A model generated the notes under the pieces. That model did no database searches, had not been told where the DNA came from, and worked only from the letters and a program-made list of their open reading frames with translations. A stretch of DNA of 64,000 nt. Source: a virus. Below, one piece after another: positions 3,933 through 62,136 of the stretch. The translations under genes and the position numbers were made by a program. Where the stretch lies: positions 1-64,000 of IMG/VR virus record IMGVR_UViG_3300015245_000006; one strand, 5' to 3'. Position 1 is the stretch's first letter. Every line of letters begins with the position of its first letter.

Positions 3933-4942
3933 CGGTTGCTGTTCGCCTCAGTCACGCGGGTCACGTGCTTGATCGTGAGCCGCACAGCTTCTTGCCATTG
4001 TGAAGCTGGCACCTTGCCTTTCATCGGCATCATGTGCTTGTCCTGCTGCTCGCCCATCGAATGCGCGTCCTCACAGCCGCCATAGGCGTTATCGAGCGAC
4101 TTCAGCCATTCGTCGATGTCGACCTCAAATTGCTGTTCCTCGACGTGCTCCTCTTCTTCCGGTGGCGATGGCGCTCGCCTCTCAACGGTGAGAGGCTTAT
4201 CACCCGGGAAACCCTCCTCGGTCTTTGCCTCCTCCTTCGCGGGTTCGGCTTGGGTTTCGGGCTGCTTGGTTTCATCTGGCGGCGGCGGTGCGCGCCGGGC
4301 CGGCCGTGGCGATTCGGCTGGCGTCGGTTCCGTGTCCTCGATCTCTTCACGGAGATGGAGGCCCTTGAGCACGTCCGCGAACGCGTCGCGCAGCACCCAC
4401 CTGGCGCGCATCTTCACCATGCGTTTCGGGTAGGTTATCCATGGCGTGTCCTGCCCGCTGCGCCCGCGCTTTTCCCAGATCTTCGCCGTCTTGGCATCGC
4501 CGATCGAGAATTCGCCAGTATAGACCTTGGGATGGCCCTTCCGCTTGACGCGGCAGATGGCCGTGTAAGCGTCGGTGCCCCAAACCCCGGCGGTGGTTTC
4601 CTCGATCCATTCCATCTTGTCAGATGCATAGATCAGCGCGAGCGCTGCATCGCCCCAGATCGTCGGTTTGCCATTGATGACGGCGATCGATTGCAAGGCT
4701 TGCATCGGTGTCAAACCGATTTCCAGGCCATGCAGGATCGCCACCATCGCCTTCGGGGTGGTTTCAAGCGTAGACGGCGCCATGCCGGCTTCGACCACGA
4801 CGCGGGCGATGCGATAGGCGCCGTCGAAATCGACCGGCACGAGCGCACGAGGCGCCGCGCCGGCCATGATCGGCACCCGCATGGGCTGGTCGACCGCCGG
4901 CAGATTCCGTGCCTGCTCGTTGTTGTTGTCCTGGTCGCTCAC
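3929..4942 (-). CDS. recT: RecT-family single-strand annealing recombinase
   Basis: This 337-residue protein is predicted to bind single-stranded DNA and anneal complementary strands during phage recombination. Residues about 55-110 contain GLEIGLTPMQALQ, then IAVINGKPTIWGDAALALI, a core characteristic of one RecT subfamily. Residues about 205-280 form a Pro/Glu-rich disordered linker, followed by a short C-terminal helical domain that may recruit partners. It follows a DnaQ-like exonuclease gene with an ATGA overlap, so exonuclease and annealase are probably made together. Confidence 0.85.
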   Translation of the reverse strand: MSDQDNNNEQARNLPAVDQPMRVPIMAGAAPRALVPVDFDGAYRIARVVVEAGMAPSTLETTPKAMVAILHGLEIGLTPMQALQSIAVINGKPTIWGDAALALIYASDKMEWIEETTAGVWGTDAYTAICRVKRKGHPKVYTGEFSIGDAKTAKIWEKRGRSGQDTPWITYPKRMVKMRARWVLRDAFADVLKGLHLREEIEDTEPTPAESPRPARRAPPPPDETKQPETQAEPAKEEAKTEEGFPGDKPLTVERRAPSPPEEEEHVEEQQFEVDIDEWLKSLDNAYGGCEDAHSMGEQQDKHMMPMKGKVPASQWQEAVRLTIKHVTRVTEANSNR

Positions 4943-5625
4943 TTCGCCTCCTTGATGGCGTCGTAGTCCTTCGAAAAGTGCACGATCGGCTCGGGCTGGA
5001 AGCCTTGATCCAACATCAGGCGGAAACAGGCTTCAGCACCACGGCAGTCCGCCAGCGCGCCGTGCAGTTGAGTTGGGTCGTAGATGATGCCCAAGAAGTT
5101 CATCAGGTCAGTGAGCTTCGGCCAGCCCTTGTTGTTGGCGCCGGCCTTGACCAGTTCTCGGCCGATCGTCTTGGCGAACGGTCGCGCCTGGCGCATCAGG
5201 CAGACGTTCGGAGTCCGCGTAAACAAATCGGCCTCCTCGTTCACGGCGCGGTGCTCCAGTTCGGCCCGCACCATCTCGCGGCGTCGCAGTTCGCCACGCA
5301 TGATCTTAGTGTCGAACTGCGCGCCGAACGCGATCACGGGCAAGCGGTTGACCACGATGCGCTCGGCATACCAATCGAGCACATGCTCAACCGGAATGCC
5401 CTTTGTATCCAAAAGCTCATTCGTGATTTTGTTGACTGCGGTGGCGCCGGCTTCCATGTTCCAACCATGCGGTTGGATGTAGCGCTGATACTCCTCGATC
5501 TGCTCACCATCGTAATCGACGATGATGGCGGCAAACTCGGCCAGCCTTGGCTGGCCTTCGGCCTCTGCCGACCTCTTGTAGTCCGGCAGAGTATTGGTCT
5601 CCGTGTCGATGATCATGTAACGCAT
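4939..5625 (-). CDS. DnaQ-like 3'-5' exonuclease (DEDDh)
   Basis: This 228-residue nuclease is of the RNase H-like DEDDh family. The motifs are in order: Exo I D-T-E-T (Asp7, Glu9), Exo II within FGAQFDTK (Asp105) and Exo III H-G-A-L-A-D (His and Asp near residues 187-192). The family uses two metal ions to degrade DNA or RNA from the 3' end. Its place directly upstream of RecT suggests that it supplies single strands for annealing, although proofreading or repair is equally compatible. Confidence 0.85.
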   Translation of the reverse strand: MRYMIIDTETNTLPDYKRSAEAEGQPRLAEFAAIIVDYDGEQIEEYQRYIQPHGWNMEAGATAVNKITNELLDTKGIPVEHVLDWYAERIVVNRLPVIAFGAQFDTKIMRGELRRREMVRAELEHRAVNEEADLFTRTPNVCLMRQARPFAKTIGRELVKAGANNKGWPKLTDLMNFLGIIYDPTQLHGALADCRGAEACFRLMLDQGFQPEPIVHFSKDYDAIKEAK

Positions 5626-9207: not shown

Positions 9208-9759
9208 ATGCCGCGTAAGTGCAAATGTGGGGCGCCAATCGACAACGGCATGAACCGTTGTCGGCCGTGTCACGCCGACGCGGAGCGCGCACGGCGCAAG
9301 ACTTGCCGGCCATCGATTGAAGAGAAACGTAAGAACCGCGCGCGCTCTGCGGCTCGCGCAGCCAGGAATCGCGGAACCCTAATTCCCCAGCCATGCTCGT
9401 GCGGTGCTGAAAGCTCTGAGATGCATCACGAGGACTATTCCAAACCGTTGGAAGTGAAGTGGTTTTGCCGCAAGTGCCATGTGGCGTTGCATTACCCGGC
9501 ACATGCTCGAAAGCACAAAAGGATCAAATCGATGAAGTTGGGCGCGTGGATGGAGCGCAATTTTTGGACGACAGACATGTTTGCCGAGAAAGTTGCTGCC
9601 GAACTGAACAGAAGCACTTTTTCGCCTCGGACGGTCGAGGCTTGGAGGCAAGGCCGCGCAATCCCACGGTACCGGATGCTGCCCGTGATCTCGAAAATCA
9701 CGAACGGAGAGGTAACGGGGGACGATTTTGTTTCACATGAAACGAAAGGTACTTTGTAA
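9208..9759 (+). CDS. HNH/zinc-ribbon protein fused to a Cro-like HTH domain
   Basis: This 183-residue protein is the first rightward gene. Residues 5-21 hold CxC and CxxC (Cys5, 7, 18, 21), a zinc knuckle. Residues 63-95 hold CxC, then H-H-E-D-Y-S-K-P-L and C-R-K-C-H-V-A-L-H, the arrangement of a phage HNH-type zinc nuclease. Residues about 110-175 form a helix-turn-helix with T-V-E-A-W-R-Q-G-R-A-I-P recognition features, typical of small Cro/CI regulators that choose a site by recognition helix and close with V-T-G-D-D-F. It may be a DNA-binding regulator with a nuclease-derived zinc module. Its gene lies beside the divergent dyad, suggesting autoregulation. Confidence 0.7.
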   Translation: MPRKCKCGAPIDNGMNRCRPCHADAERARRKTCRPSIEEKRKNRARSAARAARNRGTLIPQPCSCGAESSEMHHEDYSKPLEVKWFCRKCHVALHYPAHARKHKRIKSMKLGAWMERNFWTTDMFAEKVAAELNRSTFSPRTVEAWRQGRAIPRYRMLPVISKITNGEVTGDDFVSHETKGTL

Positions 9760-52284: not shown

Positions 52285-55200
52285 GTGGCATTTAGCGATG
52301 CCATGATCGGCAGCAACGATTTCGATCCCCAGGCCGCGACCGAGGATCTGATCCGCCGCCTATCGGACGAGCCATTGCCGGACACGCTCGATCCGAAAAT
52401 GCTCAATACCCGGCTGGCGCGCAAGCTCGGCGCCGAGCCGCCGAAAGAAGTCAAGGCCCCGAAAGCACCGGAGCTTGACTTTTCGGCGCAAGCCATTCCG
52501 GCCAGCAATACCGAGCCTGGCAATGTGCTCGATTTCACCTCTCAGGTACAACCAACTCCGGTAGCCGCAGCCGCGCCCGGAACGTCGGTTACGGATAAGC
52601 TTCAGAGCGTCCACGAGAATATTGATCCCGCGACGGCCGCCAAGGGCTTCGCGAAGGGTGCCATGCAGGGCACCGGCGGCGTGATGAAGGGCGCCGCGCG
52701 CCTTCAGAGCCAGGCGCAACCTTACCTCAATTCCCTCGAGTACGACCCCATGGGCAACGTCATCGGCCAAAAGCCGGTGCAGCCACCCACTCCAATCGAA
52801 CAGAACCCGGTTTACCGGGCCGGCAAAGCCGTGGAAGGAGCCGCGCCAGGCATGACGCCGGCCGAGGAAAGCTCCCTGACCGGCCAAGTCGGCACTATGG
52901 CGGGCGGAATTGCGCCTTATGCCGCGGCCACCCTTGTCGGTGGTCCCGCGCTCGGCATCGCCGCGGGCTTCACCGGCATGGCGGCCGATACCTATGGCAA
53001 GGTCTACGAAGAGGCGATCGACAAAGGCGCCGACGAAGCGACCGCACAGAAGGCCGCAAGCCGTTCCGCCTTGGTCGCCGGCGCATTGGGTTCGTTGCCG
53101 CTCGGAGCGGGTAAGCTCGCCAAAGGGTTGATCGCCAAGGCCGGGACCAGCGCGGCAGCATTCGCCGGCCTCGGCGAGGCACAGCATTGGGCGCTGGAGG
53201 AAATCGCCAAGAGCTACGATCCGGAACGCGGCTATTCGCTCGAAGCCAAGCGGCTGATCGCCGAGCTGATCCTCGGCGCCGGCATGGGCGGCCTGCACTA
53301 TGCCCAGACCGACCACGTCAACATCAACACGTCGAGCGGACCAACGCCGACGGCAGGATTGCCGCCTCCGGCCGGAGGTAGCCCGCAAGGCGGTGCTGGA
53401 TATGGTCCGGGAGGACGGCCGAATCCTGGCGCTGGCGCGTGGCCTGGAGACACAGGTTCATGGTCTCAACCGCCTCCTGGCGGTGGACCGCAGCCGGGAC
53501 CGGGACCTCAGCCTGGTCCGCAATCGAATGCTGGCGCCGCTGGGGGCGCGCATCAGCAGCAGGGACCCCAGCCGCCGCCCGGCGGACCTGGCGGCACCCA
53601 AAGTGGCCCACGGCCCAATGCAGGCGGTGGCGGCCCGGGATCGCAGCAGCAGGCCAAACCGCCGCCTGGCGCTGGCGCCGGCAAGGGCCCTGAGTTCACC
53701 ATGGACGCCCGCATGCGCGCGAAGATGGAGAAGGTGTTCCGGATGTACGAGCCGGGCGCCGACGTCTCCGGCATGTCGGATTCCGACCTATTCAACGCCG
53801 TCAACGAGCACCTGCGCGACACCTCCAAGACCGGCTACACGGCGAAGCCGGAGACAGAGCAGGAAGCAGCGGCGCGCGAGGCGACCGCCAAGCGGCGCGA
53901 TGAGGACGAGATCCTGCGCAAGGCCGGCTGGACCGACGCGCATATCAACGCGATGAGCGAGGAGCAGCGCGCGTCCTACATGGCGCGCGCGCAAGGCGCC
54001 AAGCCCGAAGCTGCTCAATCGCGGAAAGATCGGACAGATCGGAAAGATTCGGAACAGGCGGCCGAGCCAAAAGTCGAAGAGCCAGTGGCCGCGGCCAGTG
54101 GTGAAAATCAAAATGCCCCAAAAAACGAGCAGTTAGATATTCACCAGGGCACGCGCGAGGCGCCGATCGTCCCGAAGACCGCCGACGAGGTGGTCAAGGC
54201 ACAGGCCGCGGAGCCAACACCAGCCCAGGCCAGCGCCGAGAACTACCAGCACGCACATGTCGAGCTCCCGCAGTTCGGGCTGACGGGCGACCGCTCGGTG
54301 TCGATCGAGACCGGTGTTGGTCAGACCCGCAAGGGCATCGGCGAAGATGGGAAGCCCTGGGAAGTCCAGATGCAGGGCGGCGCGTACGGCCGGATCAAGG
54401 GCACGAAGGCGGCCGATTTCAAGCACGACGCGGACGGCAACCAGATCCTTGACAAAGATGGCAATCCGGTCCGTCAGAACCTCGATATCAAGATCGGACC
54501 CAATCCGACGAGTCCGTACATCTTCATCGTCGACCAGCACGACCCGAAGACCGGCAAGTTCGACGAGCACAAGATCCTGGCCGGTTACCGCACGCCGCTC
54601 GATGCGCTGCACGGGCATGCGCTCGATTATGGGGATCACGCGGAGGGCCGAATCGGTCACGTCACCGCGATGGGACCGGAAGAGTTCAAGGCTTGGCTGA
54701 AGACGGACACGACAAAGCCGTTGAAGCCGGAGACCGCGCCGCCGACCTCGATGCGACCTGAAGCCGTCGAGGCCGGCGCGCGTACTCCTCTGACTGAGGC
54801 TCCGGGTGAAGGCGCCAATTCCGAAGTCCCGAAGGTCGAACCCAAGGGCACGGCCAAACCGAAAACAACTACTACGGGTTTAGGTTCCGAGCAGCCGCTC
54901 TCGTTGCTGCAATTTATCGCTTCGAAAGGCGGCATTAAGGCACATCCCGAGTTGGCGGCGATTGGTCTCACCGGTGTCCACAGGATTGTGGTACCGGGCC
55001 GGAAGGGCTTTGCAGCCACGGTTTCACCAAAGGGCATGCATCTCGACAAGATGCGTGAGGCCGCGCAGGAAGCCGGATACCTGCACGGCGAAGGCGAAAA
55101 GACATCGACAATCCGTGACTTGCTGGACGCAATTGATACCGAGCTTCGGGGCCAGAAGAAGCATGCGGCTGGCGAGGAAGGCACCAAAACTAAGGCTGAA

Positions 55201-58200
55201 GCCACCCTGGCGGCCGAGCGCGAGGCGCACGAGCAGGAGCGCCATGAAGCCAATTACGGCGAATCGGAGCGCTCCGTCGAAATCGAATATCCGGAAAGCC
55301 CGCTGGAGGTGCGCGCCGCGGCTGGGCGCCTGATGGTGGACGAGGGCATGGACGTGCACGACGCGGTCGAGCGTGCCTCGGTGCAGCTTGCCAACGAGGA
55401 TGAGCACTACCGCGAGACACCAGACCAAATCATTGATACATTCGGGCCCGAGGCAGACCATGTTATTCACCGCGCAACAGCACATGAAGATGGCGAAGAG
55501 ACTGCACGCGCGGTCGAAGCAGGAGCGCGACCCGGTGGCGGCGAAGAAGCAGAAGGGCTTGGCGCACACGTTCCGGAGACTGGCGCAGCAGGCGGCGAAG
55601 AAGCAACCGCCGAAGTAAAACCCACCGTCGAGAAAGGCGCCGACAACAAGCCGCAGCTTGTTATATCTGGCGCCGAGAAGATCGGCCAGGGCGCGCAGGC
55701 CAAGCGCGCGGCTGCCGCAGCGCTCAAGCCAAAAGTCACACAAAAGGCCATGGACGTTGGCCTGTTCGGCGACGAGAAGGACCAGGCTGACCTCCTCGAC
55801 ACCATCCGCGCATCGGAGCGCAAGATCGAGAAGGCGCTCGGCAAGGATGCCGACAAAGTGGCGCCGGTCGATATCGCTCGCGCCGCCGAAATCATGGCCG
55901 AGCACGAAGGCATGGAGCCGGCCACGGCCTTCGGCCAGGCTGTGATCGAGAATGCGGTCGATCATGACTTCATCACGCCGCAGCAAGCCGAGGAAGCCTA
56001 TGGCGAAAAAGTCAAAAACATATTGGACGCCGGACGGCAAGGGGCATCTGGCGGCGGGACACCTGTTGAGCAAGAACGCGCCGCACCTGGGGAAGAGCGC
56101 ACCGGTAGTGCAGCGGAAAATGGCGAGCTTCCGGGCGGCGGCGAAGCTGGCGAAGCAGGCGAGTCCGAACCTGCCCGTGCCGAAGGTGCAGGCCTACCCG
56201 AGCCTGCCGGGCCTGAAGCCACCGAGCCAGGAGCCACCGGCGGGGCTGAAGCCGCTGGGGACGAAGCCGGCAACGCCGCTGAACAAGAGCCTGCCGCCAG
56301 CCCTACCGACTACGCCGGCCTGACACCGCTCGATCGCTATAAGGCGGTCGCAAAGCGCATCGTCGCGGGCGATATCGGCGCCGACGAATTGAAATCGGAG
56401 TTCGCGCGCGTCCTGCATAGCGGCGATTACATCAAGGCCGAATTGAACAGCCGCACGATCAAGCAACTGGCGCCGCGTGGCGCTGGCAGCATGAGCAAGA
56501 AGGAGATTGTCGACAGGATCTACTCGAACATGCTCCAGCGCTTCAACGTGCATGGAAGCGTGACGTGGCAGCCGATGGGCCAGGAAACCTTTGAGGGCGC
56601 GCTCGCCAATCGAATTGAGAACACCACCGACGCCGATATCCAAGAGGCGACCGCCAAGCGCCAGGCCGAAAAGGCTGAATGGGAACAGACTTACGGCGAT
56701 CCGCAGAGCCTCTATCAGTTCGAAGCCTTCATCCGCGCCAAGGGATTCGGCAAGCTCACGCCGGAGCAGCGCGTTCGCTACGATGAACTGAGGGCCGAAG
56801 AGAATCGCCGCGAGCTCGAGAAGGCAAAGGCCGAGCGCAAGAGCGATGTCCGCAAGGTCGATACCGAAGTCGGGATGGAACTCGTTGAGACCAAGCACAC
56901 GCAGAAAGGCCACGACCTGTTCGTGGTCAAGATGGCCGATCGCGTTGAGGCTGAAACTTACAAGGAACTGAATAGCGCGGCGAAGCGCCTGGGCGGCTAC
57001 TGGTCGAGCTATACCAAAGGTGGAGCGGTCCCGGGCTTCCAGTTCAAGACCAAGGATGCCGCCGAGAAGTTTATGGCGGTACGCTACGGCGACGTCAGCC
57101 GCAAGGATCTCGTCCAGCACAAGGAAGAGAAGCGGCTTGAAGGCGCGGTGGACAATCTGCGCGACCAAGCCGAGCGCATGACGGTCGCGGCTGATGAGAA
57201 GCTCGGCGCCGATCGGCTGGTGAACACCGCGCGACGGGCCAACATAGCGGCCGGCGCTGAGGCGAAAGCGAATGCCGATAAGGCGCTCGCGACCAGCATG
57301 CGCAACATCGCCGATGCAATCGAGGCTGGCGAGGCGACACATCTGGGCTGGTTGCGTACGCGCGCCGATGTCGAGATGCTGGATCGGATCACACGCGGTA
57401 CCAGACGCGATTGGGTCGAGGCGCAAAAGCCGGCAGACTACGGCGAGCGGCAAAAGCTGGAAGAGAAGCCCATCAGCCAGGAGATGATCGACGCGGCGCA
57501 TTACCCATATCCCTACGCGCACCGCGAGGAAGTTGTTAAGCTGGCGCAGGCGGTATCAAAAACTCCCGGTGCCAAGATGGCCGCAGCGCGCCTGATGAAG
57601 GAAGCGCGACTTGCCGAGTCGAAGAAGCAATGGCGCGTCGAAGCCACACACCTTGGCACCTTGGACGATTTCAAGACGGTCGGAGAAGCCGCAGCGAAAC
57701 TTCCAGGCGCCAAGTATGGCGCAAACACCATGCTGGAGTCGTTCAACGATTTTAACCGGCTGCGGCGCCTTGGCATCAACGATCTGCCCTCACTGCGCGC
57801 GGCCCTGCGTGAGTTCCTGAAATTCCGCGGGAGTGCCGCGAAGGCCGATCCGATCAAGGCTGCGGAGCGCGCTCTGGTCGGGCGCAAGATCCCCGGATAT
57901 TTCCCCACCCCGGATGCTCTGGTCGATCGGATGATTGAGGCGGCCGATATCCAACCAGGCATGAGCGTGCTGGAGCCGTCGGCCGGCAAGGGCAACATTG
58001 CGGACAAACTCGCGCTCGCGGCTGATCCGGGCGCTTTGTCCGTGATCGAACCTGTGCCTGATCTGCGCTCGATCCTGAAGGCCAAGGGCCACGACATCGT
58101 CGATAGCGATTTCCTGGATCACAAGGAGCGCGGCTTCACCTATGGCGACGTCTACCGCGCGCCAGACGGCACGCTTGGTGTCATGCACGGAAGCAACGGC

Positions 58201-61200
58201 ATCGGCGGCAATCGTGTTGGGTTCGAGAGGCTGGACGCCAATGGCGAGCCATTCAAGGGAAGCCGCAGCTACTATGATCGCGGCGAATTAGAGCCGGTCG
58301 AGAAGCGCGGCTACAACAGCGGCTACGACCGCATCGTGATGAACCCGCCATTCGAGGATCGGCAGGACGTCGCGCATGTCCAGCACGCTTATGAGATGCT
58401 GAAGCCTGGCGGGCGCCTCGTTGCCATCATGTCGGAGGGGCCGTTCTTCGGGTCCGACAAGCGCGCGAAGGACTTCCGGGATTGGCTGGAGAGCGTCGGC
58501 GGCACGAGCGAGAAGAACCCGGAGGGCTCATTCGAAACCAGCGAGCGCTCCACCGGGGTCAACACCCGTATGGTAGTGATCAACAAACCGGCCGGCGGCT
58601 TTTCGGAGATGATAGCGCCGATGCTTGGTGCCAAAGCACAACAATTCACGCTCGAACGTGGCCGCGCAACAGGCAATGAACATCTTGTGCTGTATGACAG
58701 CGAAGGCAATCTGGTTGCTCAAATCGAAGGTACCAAAAGCGGGTTGCGGTTCACGCCGGAAATCGAGCGCATGATTCGTGATCCGGATAACGACATTGTT
58801 GCTCATCATAATCATCCGATGAATCGTAGTTTCAGCGCAACCGACATTGGTTGTCTGGCTGCGCCTGGACTTCGAACCGTGTGGGCACATGGTCACGGTG
58901 GCGCCATCTACCGAGTCAACCTGACACCTGAGGCGCGTCGGGCGCTTCCGATCGACATCAATCAGGCCGCCGGTTCGCTGGCAAAATATTGGTATGCGGC
59001 CGAAGGCGGACTGAAAGCATTTATCGACCCGCATTACAAGGCATCCGGGAAAGACCCGGAGTTTGCGGCAAACTTCGAAGTGGCATGGGCACATCTCATC
59101 AACGAGATCATGCGTGAGGCAGGGATCACGGAGTATCAGACCAACTTCGAAACCGACCCTTCTATTACAGGTCTCCCGAAACTATCTCAGGCCATGGCAT
59201 ATGTGGCCGACACCTTTAGAAAGGGCTTGTTCGGTGACGAAGGACCCCCGGCCGCTGGGCGGCTTGATCGACGACCCGACTCCATTCGACACCCTGGAAA
59301 CATGGGAGTCTCATTTGATCGATCTGAAGTCGCAACCCCCGTCAACCCTGGGCAACGAGGCGCTTCACCACGCGGCAAAAATGATCTCCGAGAAGAAGAA
59401 AAAGGACTGAGTCCGGCGCCGACGGAACCGCCCGATCGCAGCGTCACCCTTGGCGCCTGGGGCGATCCATCCAAGGTGATCCGCGAGTTCAAGCGCTTCT
59501 GGATGTCGACCTTCCAACCCGAACTGGTGAGCGATCGCGCGCTGATGGCAGATCCGCTGTTCGCGCGCTACAAGTCCGCCAGCGCGCAGGAAAAGGATGC
59601 GCTGGTTCGGCAGAGCGAAAAGGAGTGGAATTACTGGAACAAGCGCGGCGATGCAGAGCGCATTCGCTTTATCGACGACGTCGAGACACGCGTGTTCGGC
59701 AATGTCCCAGCCGATCCGGTGCAAGCCGCGATGGCGCGGCGGTATCGCGCCATGCTTGATGCCAATTGGGCTTTGGAGAAGCGTTATGGTTCGCAGGCGG
59801 CGTTTGTCGAAGACTACTTCCCGCACATCTGGGAAAGGCCGGACGATTGGCGCGCCTTTGCCGAGGCTCGCAGCGCCCAGATGGGACCAACCTGGTTCCA
59901 GAAAAAGCGCACCATCGACTACATTACCGACGGCTTGGCCGCTGGCCTTAAGCTCAAATATACGAACCCTGTCGACATCGTGGTGCACCGTCTCCTTTCC
60001 GGAGTCGATATGCGTCAGCGTATGGAATTGCTCTACCAGCTCAAGAAAGAAGGGCTTGCTTGGGAGGGGGCTCACGGCGGGGCTCCCTTGGTAGAGCGCG
60101 GCTGGCGCGCCATCAATGCGCCGGACCGCAAGCAGTGGGTTATCCATCCGGATGTGCAACCACTTTGGAAGAACGCCGTCGAGGCCAAGGGGCTGTGGCA
60201 GGACGAAAGCCTCGGCGGCTCGATATTCCGCGGCTGGATGAGCTTCAAGAACGCCTGGGTCCCGGTGAAGCTCGCGATGAGCGCGTTCCATCCGCTGCAC
60301 GTCCTGCACATCAACTACTCCAACGGCATGGGCCAGGGCTGGGATAACTTGGTCAAGGGCAAGGACCCGGTCGGCGCGCTGAAGGCGGTCGCCAAGGGCT
60401 TCATGGGTCCGATGATCGCGGCGCCTGGAGCCACGATCGGGGCTGTGGCAGGTACGGCTCTGGGTTCTACCATGGGTATGCCGGGCTGGGGTGGCCTGCT
60501 TGGCTCGATCGCGGGCTCGGCAGCCTTTGCGGGCGCCAAGCGCGCCGGCCTGGTGAGTGCGCCAGCCACCCGCGAGGCGCTCGCCAGGAGCGCCTGGAGC
60601 ACGCGGCCGAACAGCGCTGGCTGGAATAGGCTGACACCCGCACAGCGCGCCGACGTGGCCCTAATGACCGATGGTGGCTTCTCGCCGCAACTGTCCGAGC
60701 AATTGAAGATCGGCGCCAAGCGGCAGCTCGCGGTGGCGTTCCAGAAGACCCTGCGCGGCGAGGCCAAGCCCGGCGACTGGCGCAAGATGGTGGCGGCCTC
60801 GATGCGGCGCGGCATCGAGGTGTTGCAGGCGCCCATCTTTGAGCGCTGGATTCCCGAGCTGAAGACCTCGGCGTATCTCCAGGCCGCCTCGGCGCTGTTG
60901 AAGCGCCAGCCGCAACTCTTGACCGAGCATGCCGACCGGCGCCTGGCGCTGCGCGCAATCGCCAAGTCGATCGACAACCGCTTCGGCGAGATGTTCTATG
61001 GCACCCTGTTCTGGAACCGATACCTGAAAGACGCCGCAATCGGTTCGTTCTTGTCGCTCGGCTGGAATCTCGGCTTCGTGCGTGAGTTCGGGGGTGCCGC
61101 GATGGAGACGGTGTCGCGCCCGGCCGGGCTTATTCCTGGTCTTAAGCCAGGCGCACCGCGCAAGCAGATCAGGAGTGCGACGAACAAGATTCCGTTCGTG

Positions 61201-62136
61201 ATCGCCTACGTGGCTTCGGCAGCGCTAATCAACGCCATCATGACCAAGCTGTTCTCCGGGGAAAATCCGGAGGGGCTCGACTTCATCTTTGCGCGGATTG
61301 GTGGCGAAAACCCCGATGGCTCGGCTCGGCGCGTGACGAACATGTTCTACCTGCGCGAGGTGCCGATGCTGATGAAGCATGTGCAGGAGCGCGGCGGCAA
61401 CTTCATGTCCGGAGCCGGCGAGATGGTTTGGAACAAGATGATGTTCGGGCCCTTCCACGAGCTTCTCAACAACCGCAACTACTACGGCTACAACATCTGG
61501 GACGAGAACGCGCCGCTCTATAAGCAGATCTGGCAGGCGATGCGCCACGGGCTCTTCGGCGAAAGCAGCCCGATGACCTTCTCTGGTGCGGGACAAGCCG
61601 CGCGTTTGTCCGGAAAAGAGTTCCCGAGCGCGAAAGAGGCGATCGAGCACCCGGACCGGATGATGGACGCCTTGCGCGCGAAAGGTGTGGATATGAGCTT
61701 CCTTGGCTTCGGACCGGCTCCCAGCTATGTGGAGAAGTCTGCAATCCAGAATAGAATCGGTTACCTCTACCGCGAGCACGTGGCGCCGGTGTCCAAGCCA
61801 CAAGCCGAGGACGAAAACTCAAAGGAGAAGATGGCGGTTCGCACCGCCATCATGATCGGGAAAAGAGACAAGGACGCCGACATGATCAACCTCGCTCGCG
61901 AGCGGGGTCGAGCGATCGGGCTCACGCCAAAGTACATGGCGAATATCGGTAAGACGCCAACGGATGTGTATCTGTTCTCGCGGCTGCCGGATGAAGACCA
62001 GCGCTCGCTTTTGCGCAACGCTTCGGAGGAGGAGCAAAGTCGTTACTTCAGGCACGCGCACCTGAAGGTCAGGCAGGAGATCAACCGCGCCCGCTACGCG
62101 CCACAACCGCCAGCAGCGCAACAACAGGGACTTTGA
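52285..62136 (+). CDS. Giant polyvalent/ejection protein (pyrophosphatase-like, adenine methyltransferase, JAMM)
   Basis: This single frame encodes 3,283 residues. In order: two L-D-F-[ST] motifs (about 65-90); a hydrophobic Gly/Ala-rich region (about 185-340); a Pro/Gly linker (about 345-475); a pyrophosphatase-like polyvalent domain (about 653-810, with F-D-E-H-K-I-L-A-G-Y); long charged helices with low-complexity linkers; an adenine methyltransferase (about 1865-2100) with L-E-P-S-A-G-K-G-N and catalytic N-P-P-F (2020-2023); a JAMM-type domain with H-N-H-P (2175-2178) and S-A-T-D (2184-2187); and a C-terminal region (about 2385-3283) with Y-F-P-H-I-W and membrane-like segments near 2715-2755 and 2969-2990. 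Such proteins are injected with phage DNA and are thought to counter host defences early. The GTG start lies three bases after the previous stop. Confidence 0.8.
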   Translation: MAFSDAMIGSNDFDPQAATEDLIRRLSDEPLPDTLDPKMLNTRLARKLGAEPPKEVKAPKAPELDFSAQAIPASNTEPGNVLDFTSQVQPTPVAAAAPGTSVTDKLQSVHENIDPATAAKGFAKGAMQGTGGVMKGAARLQSQAQPYLNSLEYDPMGNVIGQKPVQPPTPIEQNPVYRAGKAVEGAAPGMTPAEESSLTGQVGTMAGGIAPYAAATLVGGPALGIAAGFTGMAADTYGKVYEEAIDKGADEATAQKAASRSALVAGALGSLPLGAGKLAKGLIAKAGTSAAAFAGLGEAQHWALEEIAKSYDPERGYSLEAKRLIAELILGAGMGGLHYAQTDHVNINTSSGPTPTAGLPPPAGGSPQGGAGYGPGGRPNPGAGAWPGDTGSWSQPPPGGGPQPGPGPQPGPQSNAGAAGGAHQQQGPQPPPGGPGGTQSGPRPNAGGGGPGSQQQAKPPPGAGAGKGPEFTMDARMRAKMEKVFRMYEPGADVSGMSDSDLFNAVNEHLRDTSKTGYTAKPETEQEAAAREATAKRRDEDEILRKAGWTDAHINAMSEEQRASYMARAQGAKPEAAQSRKDRTDRKDSEQAAEPKVEEPVAAASGENQNAPKNEQLDIHQGTREAPIVPKTADEVVKAQAAEPTPAQASAENYQHAHVELPQFGLTGDRSVSIETGVGQTRKGIGEDGKPWEVQMQGGAYGRIKGTKAADFKHDADGNQILDKDGNPVRQNLDIKIGPNPTSPYIFIVDQHDPKTGKFDEHKILAGYRTPLDALHGHALDYGDHAEGRIGHVTAMGPEEFKAWLKTDTTKPLKPETAPPTSMRPEAVEAGARTPLTEAPGEGANSEVPKVEPKGTAKPKTTTTGLGSEQPLSLLQFIASKGGIKAHPELAAIGLTGVHRIVVPGRKGFAATVSPKGMHLDKMREAAQEAGYLHGEGEKTSTIRDLLDAIDTELRGQKKHAAGEEGTKTKAEATLAAEREAHEQERHEANYGESERSVEIEYPESPLEVRAAAGRLMVDEGMDVHDAVERASVQLANEDEHYRETPDQIIDTFGPEADHVIHRATAHEDGEETARAVEAGARPGGGEEAEGLGAHVPETGAAGGEEATAEVKPTVEKGADNKPQLVISGAEKIGQGAQAKRAAAAALKPKVTQKAMDVGLFGDEKDQADLLDTIRASERKIEKALGKDADKVAPVDIARAAEIMAEHEGMEPATAFGQAVIENAVDHDFITPQQAEEAYGEKVKNILDAGRQGASGGGTPVEQERAAPGEERTGSAAENGELPGGGEAGEAGESEPARAEGAGLPEPAGPEATEPGATGGAEAAGDEAGNAAEQEPAASPTDYAGLTPLDRYKAVAKRIVAGDIGADELKSEFARVLHSGDYIKAELNSRTIKQLAPRGAGSMSKKEIVDRIYSNMLQRFNVHGSVTWQPMGQETFEGALANRIENTTDADIQEATAKRQAEKAEWEQTYGDPQSLYQFEAFIRAKGFGKLTPEQRVRYDELRAEENRRELEKAKAERKSDVRKVDTEVGMELVETKHTQKGHDLFVVKMADRVEAETYKELNSAAKRLGGYWSSYTKGGAVPGFQFKTKDAAEKFMAVRYGDVSRKDLVQHKEEKRLEGAVDNLRDQAERMTVAADEKLGADRLVNTARRANIAAGAEAKANADKALATSMRNIADAIEAGEATHLGWLRTRADVEMLDRITRGTRRDWVEAQKPADYGERQKLEEKPISQEMIDAAHYPYPYAHREEVVKLAQAVSKTPGAKMAAARLMKEARLAESKKQWRVEATHLGTLDDFKTVGEAAAKLPGAKYGANTMLESFNDFNRLRRLGINDLPSLRAALREFLKFRGSAAKADPIKAAERALVGRKIPGYFPTPDALVDRMIEAADIQPGMSVLEPSAGKGNIADKLALAADPGALSVIEPVPDLRSILKAKGHDIVDSDFLDHKERGFTYGDVYRAPDGTLGVMHGSNGIGGNRVGFERLDANGEPFKGSRSYYDRGELEPVEKRGYNSGYDRIVMNPPFEDRQDVAHVQHAYEMLKPGGRLVAIMSEGPFFGSDKRAKDFRDWLESVGGTSEKNPEGSFETSERSTGVNTRMVVINKPAGGFSEMIAPMLGAKAQQFTLERGRATGNEHLVLYDSEGNLVAQIEGTKSGLRFTPEIERMIRDPDNDIVAHHNHPMNRSFSATDIGCLAAPGLRTVWAHGHGGAIYRVNLTPEARRALPIDINQAAGSLAKYWYAAEGGLKAFIDPHYKASGKDPEFAANFEVAWAHLINEIMREAGITEYQTNFETDPSITGLPKLSQAMAYVADTFRKGLFGDEGPPAAGRLDRRPDSIRHPGNMGVSFDRSEVATPVNPGQRGASPRGKNDLREEEKGLSPAPTEPPDRSVTLGAWGDPSKVIREFKRFWMSTFQPELVSDRALMADPLFARYKSASAQEKDALVRQSEKEWNYWNKRGDAERIRFIDDVETRVFGNVPADPVQAAMARRYRAMLDANWALEKRYGSQAAFVEDYFPHIWERPDDWRAFAEARSAQMGPTWFQKKRTIDYITDGLAAGLKLKYTNPVDIVVHRLLSGVDMRQRMELLYQLKKEGLAWEGAHGGAPLVERGWRAINAPDRKQWVIHPDVQPLWKNAVEAKGLWQDESLGGSIFRGWMSFKNAWVPVKLAMSAFHPLHVLHINYSNGMGQGWDNLVKGKDPVGALKAVAKGFMGPMIAAPGATIGAVAGTALGSTMGMPGWGGLLGSIAGSAAFAGAKRAGLVSAPATREALARSAWSTRPNSAGWNRLTPAQRADVALMTDGGFSPQLSEQLKIGAKRQLAVAFQKTLRGEAKPGDWRKMVAASMRRGIEVLQAPIFERWIPELKTSAYLQAASALLKRQPQLLTEHADRRLALRAIAKSIDNRFGEMFYGTLFWNRYLKDAAIGSFLSLGWNLGFVREFGGAAMETVSRPAGLIPGLKPGAPRKQIRSATNKIPFVIAYVASAALINAIMTKLFSGENPEGLDFIFARIGGENPDGSARRVTNMFYLREVPMLMKHVQERGGNFMSGAGEMVWNKMMFGPFHELLNNRNYYGYNIWDENAPLYKQIWQAMRHGLFGESSPMTFSGAGQAARLSGKEFPSAKEAIEHPDRMMDALRAKGVDMSFLGFGPAPSYVEKSAIQNRIGYLYREHVAPVSKPQAEDENSKEKMAVRTAIMIGKRDKDADMINLARERGRAIGLTPKYMANIGKTPTDVYLFSRLPDEDQRSLLRNASEEEQSRYFRHAHLKVRQEINRARYAPQPPAAQQQGL
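55460..55618 (+). CDS. Nested ORF 1 inside the giant gene (+1 frame)
   Basis: A 52-codon frame, M-L-F-T-A-Q-Q-H-M-K-M-A-K-R-L, reads a basic helical protein in the frame one base after that of the giant gene. By hand count 47 of its 52 codons end in G or C, against about 21 of 52 in the giant frame. GC-rich first codon bases in the giant linker explain part of this. A separate small protein is possible but unproven. Confidence 0.4.
   Translation: MLFTAQQHMKMAKRLHARSKQERDPVAAKKQKGLAHTFRRLAQQAAKKQPPK
56000..56323 (+). CDS. Nested ORF 2 inside the giant gene (+1 frame)
   Basis: This is a 107-codon frame, M-A-K-K-S-K-T-Y-W-T-P-D-G-K-G-H, in the same +1 frame as nested ORF 1. GAGGA lies five bases before its ATG, a usable ribosome site. 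The first 50 residues look like a small basic protein; the rest is Pro/Lys-rich. The giant frame here reads an acidic Gly/Ala/Glu linker. Real translation is possible but unproven. Confidence 0.4.
   Translation: MAKKSKTYWTPDGKGHLAAGHLLSKNAPHLGKSAPVVQRKMASFRAAAKLAKQASPNLPVPKVQAYPSLPGLKPPSQEPPAGLKPLGTKPATPLNKSLPPALPTTPA
59201..59410 (+). other. Out-of-frame coding-like segment after the JAMM domain
   Basis: In the +1 frame this segment reads L-I-D-D-P-T-P-F-D-T-L-E-T-W-E-S-H-L and ends A-K-M-I-S-E-K-K-K-K-D before a stop at 59408-59410; the giant frame here reads an unstructured basic linker. It may be the former C-terminus of the JAMM cassette before it fused to the giant gene, or a small nested frame. 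No ribosome site is obvious. Confidence 0.3.

Follow-up and report, generated by a model that had tools for sequence, protein, structure and literature searches.

Does a giant phage gene encode small proteins of its own in another reading frame, or are the open frames seen within it a by-product of its composition? This question is raised by an IMG/VR virus record of 64,647 bases, of which 64,000 were analysed here (the window), and in which a reading of the sequence alone had picked out two small open reading frames (ORFs) lying out of frame within the gene for a 3,283-residue protein. Our analysis points to three nested genes, designated P1, P2 and e, each of which is preceded by a match to a Shine-Dalgarno (SD) sequence:

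52285..62136, + strand: giant gene, from the ORF list; product of 3,283 aa, polyvalent-type, carrying an InPase domain and a region resembling N6-methyltransferases
55450..55453, + strand: SD-like GAGG, 6 bases upstream of the P1 start codon (ATG)
55460..55618, + strand: predicted nested gene P1, 52 aa, +1 frame, with homologues nested in eight other giants
55990..55994, + strand: GAGGA (SD), 5 bases before the P2 ATG
56000..56323, + strand: predicted nested gene P2, 107 aa, +1 frame, with a helical N-terminal half and a Pro/Lys-rich tail
59221..59224, + strand: SD-like AAGG, 9 bases upstream of the gene e start codon (GTG)
59234..59410, + strand: predicted nested gene e, 58 aa, +1 frame, GTG start; found by alternative-frame scans and absent from the sequence-only reading

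Residues 647–806 of the giant match the Pfam InPase family PF18823 (E 6e-24, above the family cut-off), while its N6-methyltransferase matches fall below the cut-off, with an NPPF motif visible in its sequence. At the DNA level, a 290-base stretch of the window shows ~67% identity to Pseudomonas phage F116 and its relatives. Scans of Pfam, PHROGs and NCBIfam assigned no functional family to P1, P2 or e, and phage records searched by tblastn with P1 and P2 gave no matches.

Both ORFs first proposed are present as described, start with ATG and lie one base downstream of the giant's frame. An exact recount of codons ending in G or C reproduced the hand counts for the first (47/52 in the nested frame against 21/52 in the giant frame) and gave 90/107 against 59/107 for the second, where the GAGGA does end five bases upstream of the ATG. 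The description of the products as small basic proteins holds for P1 (pI 11.9) and P2 (pI 10.6) but not as a general trait, as four other nested families in these giants encode mostly neutral or acidic products; translated in the giant's own frame, the P1 and P2 stretches are acidic (pI 4.6 and 4.1, respectively). A caution that linker composition would produce part of the codon signal proved well placed: when the giant protein was held fixed, synonymous codons were redrawn and openness of the nested frame was scored, the frame stayed open in 61% of resamplings for each ORF. In one genome alone, the two ORFs are therefore not significant, and relatives are needed to judge them.

Relatives provide a consistent picture. 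P2 occurs at 12 loci including the window, the other 11 homologues being 41–73% identical to it and drawn from independent IMG/VR contigs; at 12/12 loci it lies in the +1 frame of a giant ORF, at the same insertion point and with a comparable stop. Its start falls within giant codons for an ‘AYG’-like motif, after a conserved giant domain, with variants ‘VYG’ in L013 and ‘QYG’, accompanied by a GTG start, in L050. P1 has homologues, all in the +1 frame of giants, at L002, L008, L010, L012, L047, L016, L035 and L036, the last three being Bradyrhizobium chromosomal (prophage-type) giants. Nested stops in relatives, which the sequence-only reading had named as evidence against its proposal, are absent from all 12 P2 loci and all nine P1 loci, and the conserved products support its interpretation of these ORFs as out-of-frame small protein genes. 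L016 keeps the P2-associated domain, upstream of the P1-associated domain, without P2 itself, so P2 is dispensable there; this arrangement suggests that nested genes may travel with their modules.

The pattern of substitution carries most weight. Across the P2 region, mean pairwise identity is 0.56 for the nested product and 0.36 for the giant, and the nested product is the more conserved in 66/66 pairs. In a set of eight loci, substitutions at giant codon positions 1/2/3 run at 0.47/0.26/0.24 inside P2 and 0.25/0.20/0.51 just upstream, with bootstrap intervals that exclude zero in opposite directions. For P1, the codon-position counts between the window and L008 differ at p = 0.0055; over all members, differences are equalised across giant codon positions, not flipped. 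When the whole giant was compared with that of L008 in a sliding test, the excess of third-position changes was lost only at P1, P2, e and a gappy N-terminal stretch, contrary to the free variation of the giant's synonymous sites that would have spoken against nested genes. Counts of differences at positions 1/2/3 are 704/549/1506 outside the nested genes and 77/59/51 inside P1, P2 and e together (Fisher p = 2e-10, although the compared sequences are related by descent and the p-values given here overstate independence). The N-terminal stretch (52588–52794) probably reflects poor alignment; a conserved alternative ORF was looked for there and none was found. Nor does the window's giant contain a further +1 or +2 ORF of at least 35 codons with a strong SD match.

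If only the nested proteins were conserved, 2.7 giant-frame stops would be expected per nested gene (12 in the case of Vibrio 1.232), yet none was observed in 42, which indicates that the giant frame is kept open; the third frame contains 5.1 stops per nested gene. These sequence comparisons show selection on both frames: on the nested one to preserve its amino-acid sequence, and on the giant one at minimum to remain free of stops.

The same arrangement recurs well beyond this window. Alternative frames were compared all against all, and same-strand segments were retained where their conservation exceeded that of the giant frame. Exactly six families emerged (P1, P2, e, c, d and f), all in +1 and none in +2, with members in cultured Agrobacterium, Ochrobactrum, Ruegeria, Vibrio, Klebsiella, Serratia and Pseudomonas phages. 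Antisense conserved frames from a first scan were set aside as a mirror of coding constraint. Besides P1 and P2, the families are distributed as follows, with gene e also having homologues in L008, L010, L016, Ruegeria 45A6 and Atu_ph08:

L002 8149–8514 and L010 10868–11233, +1 frame in giants: family c, 120–131 aa, unannotated
L035 10967–11311, L036 11136–11480 and L050 9767–10072, +1 frame in giants: family d, 101–114 aa
L047 9661–9960 and L058 2599–2898: family f, 99 aa; in L047 the ATG is preceded by AGGAGG

Family c was found in the cultured phages Ruegeria 45A6, Vibrio 1.232, Klebsiella ZX1, Skulduggery and Parlo, and family d also in Atu_ph08, POI1126, VvAW1 and Itty13. The giants that contain families c, d and e are annotated as DarB-like, and for all three families the bootstrap intervals of the position test are above zero; in family c, the nested product is better conserved than the giant in 21/21 pairs.

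Nested starts also stand out from their surroundings. Of these, 34/42 are preceded by an SD match four or more bases long, compared with 11% of 2,613 other +1 ATG or GTG codons in giants, although the loci share ancestry and the start of gene e was chosen partly by SD. All nine members of the P1 family have such a match, while 7/12 members of the P2 family have none. Start regions are more weakly folded (−8.0 kcal/mol against −13.5 for a control unmatched for local G+C), and weak folding at the P2 start could substitute for an SD where this is absent. Ribosomes would thus initiate independently at the nested ATG or GTG on the giant's mRNA, guided by the SD or, for most P2 genes, by a weakly structured start region, and the small proteins would be co-produced with the giant.

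How else might these observations be explained? A purely compositional origin, in which linkers rich in Gly, Ala, Glu and Arg leave a functionless, open, G/C-ending +1 frame in G+C-rich DNA, would fit the ease with which such frames stay open (26–84% of codon resamplings across P2-family loci). It sits badly with a nested product that is the better conserved of the two, with substitution positions that flip, with the enrichment of SD matches at nested starts and with host giants of only 45% G+C for one family c member and 50% for one family d member. The position-specific substitution test, together with homologues standing free of giants, refutes it, and we consider its probability negligible. 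We rate just as low a conserved DNA or RNA element, such as a packaging or regulatory signal, in place of a protein, for which no specific observation speaks: changes are concentrated at nested third codon positions, and products retain their residues across whole-codon insertions. Ribosomal frameshifting out of the giant frame, yielding giant fragments with alternative ends in place of separate small proteins, draws some encouragement from Sinorhizobium phage PBC5, where a large ORF ends in the family d sequence, read in frame; that arrangement may, however, represent a sequencing frameshift or a gene split. Since conservation begins at the nested ATG or GTG, where SD matches and weak structure are also found, and since some family c genes have a stop in their own frame just upstream of the start, we regard frameshifting as very unlikely. 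We put at about 0.88 the probability that P1, P2 and e are real, separately started small protein genes inside the giant, a judgement drawn from comparative sequence analysis.

A different question is which frame came first. Classical overprinting, with the genes real and arising de novo inside an ancestral giant frame, is the usual direction for viral overlaps (PMC8227390), and it accords with what is known of P2, which has been seen only nested: none was found in 272 Bradyrhizobium genomes and 398 genomes of the order, in a search run without a positive control. Independent homologues, predicted for both products by the sequence-only reading, thus materialised for P1 alone, in the form of free-standing P1-family proteins encoded in Bradyrhizobium chromosomes. 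In seven of the eight of these that were tested, the C-terminal half shows homology to e (profile match E 4e-9 to 5e-13, in a small sequence set), so that two genes lying 3.6 kb apart in the giant are found fused in one Bradyrhizobium protein. In addition, nested codons are closer to the giant's own codon preference than are the overlapping giant codons in 40/42 cases, and of the two frames the giant's linker is conserved less. De novo origin consequently appears unlikely. The free-standing fusions and the codon preference suggest instead that the nested frame, at least in the case of P1 and e, predates the giant's linker, which would be secondary. During growth of the giant ORF, small genes between domain-coding segments would have been read through in another frame, and the Gly/Ala/Glu-rich linkers would be a by-product of this out-of-frame reading.

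What the small proteins do is a matter for more tentative suggestion. AlphaFold predicts P1 to be a helical hairpin (pLDDT 89; helices 5–21 and 25–48), for which a Foldseek search of the PDB found no significant match (best E 3.1); the predicted structure of P2 was too uncertain for a structure search. A comparison of P1 and P2 profiles (hhalign probability 15%, E 0.0017) is suggestive only of common ancestry. Genes neighbouring the free-standing P1-family genes gave no clear indication of function. P1 and e probably act together, because they are fused in one protein on host chromosomes, and among the phage records searched nested proteins occur with polyvalent or DarB-like giants. The nested products might be partners of the giant in packaging, folding or delivery with the virion, but this is the weakest step in our proposal and we think it rather unlikely to hold. 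The wider reading—that giants grew by in-frame joining of domains across retained small neighbour genes, that linkers are the out-of-frame reading of the swallowed genes, that the small proteins are dedicated partners in virion assembly or injection, and that this overlapping-gene layer has been missed in widely sampled phages—we judge to have somewhat less than an even chance of being right.

Known systems offer partial parallels. In Rz1 within Rz and in the overlaps of phiX174, as here, a small gene is contained entirely in a larger one that shares its strand but not its frame; in the phages examined here, however, several small genes of different families would occupy the linkers of one 7–15 kb gene. 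Burkholderia phage JC1 and BcepIL02 have embedded Rz/Rz1 genes (PMC9144972), but P1, P2 and e contain no cysteine and hence lack the lipoprotein cysteine of Rz1. Overprinted viral genes resemble the present cases in that both frames are coding and the phase is +1 (Pavesi review, PMC8227390), and differ in the apparent order of origin: here, at least for P1 and e, the long frame seems to have come after an ancestral nested one, contrary to the natural expectation for a small gene within a giant. The host giant corresponds to the multi-domain polyvalent proteins of Iyer et al. (2017; PMC5512222), who name the InPase domain; searching its text turned up no mention of overlaps or alternative frames, and ‘nested’ solely for a hairpin structure. 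Text searches of the openly available literature likewise yielded no description of genes nested within polyvalent or DarB-like ones.

Antirestriction by phage P1 requires the extra proteins DdrA, DdrB, Hdf and Ulx, which the authors of the JC1 study did not find in Bcep22-like phages, and the DarB-like gp69 of JC1 was detected in the virion by 51 unique peptides (PMC9144972). By analogy with the Dar system, where extra proteins stand beside DarB, the nested proteins are candidate counterparts for DarB-like giants, and thus candidate accessory proteins for DarB-like systems outside phage P1. On our reading, phages from culture and from the environment would carry six or more recurrent, unannotated families of small genes within their largest genes, a part of these phages' protein set that annotation has missed. 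It is also a warning that gene callers that forbid long same-strand overlaps overlook conserved genes, and it offers a testable account of how polyvalent proteins acquired their low-complexity linkers.

Some further irregularities were noted in giants of cultured phages. BcepIL02 (L084, ~9296–9619) and DC1 (L086, ~4774–5097) each carry a +1 ORF in a DarB-like giant, with AAGGAGG before its ATG and weak similarity to families d and f. The giants of PBC5 (L082) and F116 (L083) are broken into two overlapping ORFs, which may reflect a real split, a frameshift or a sequencing error, and in PBC5 the break falls at family d, whose frame is that of the upstream ORF. In Pseudomonas phage Itty13 (L081), annotated CDS run antisense to an unannotated ORF of >4,100 codons that bears family d, and the annotated strand looks wrong.
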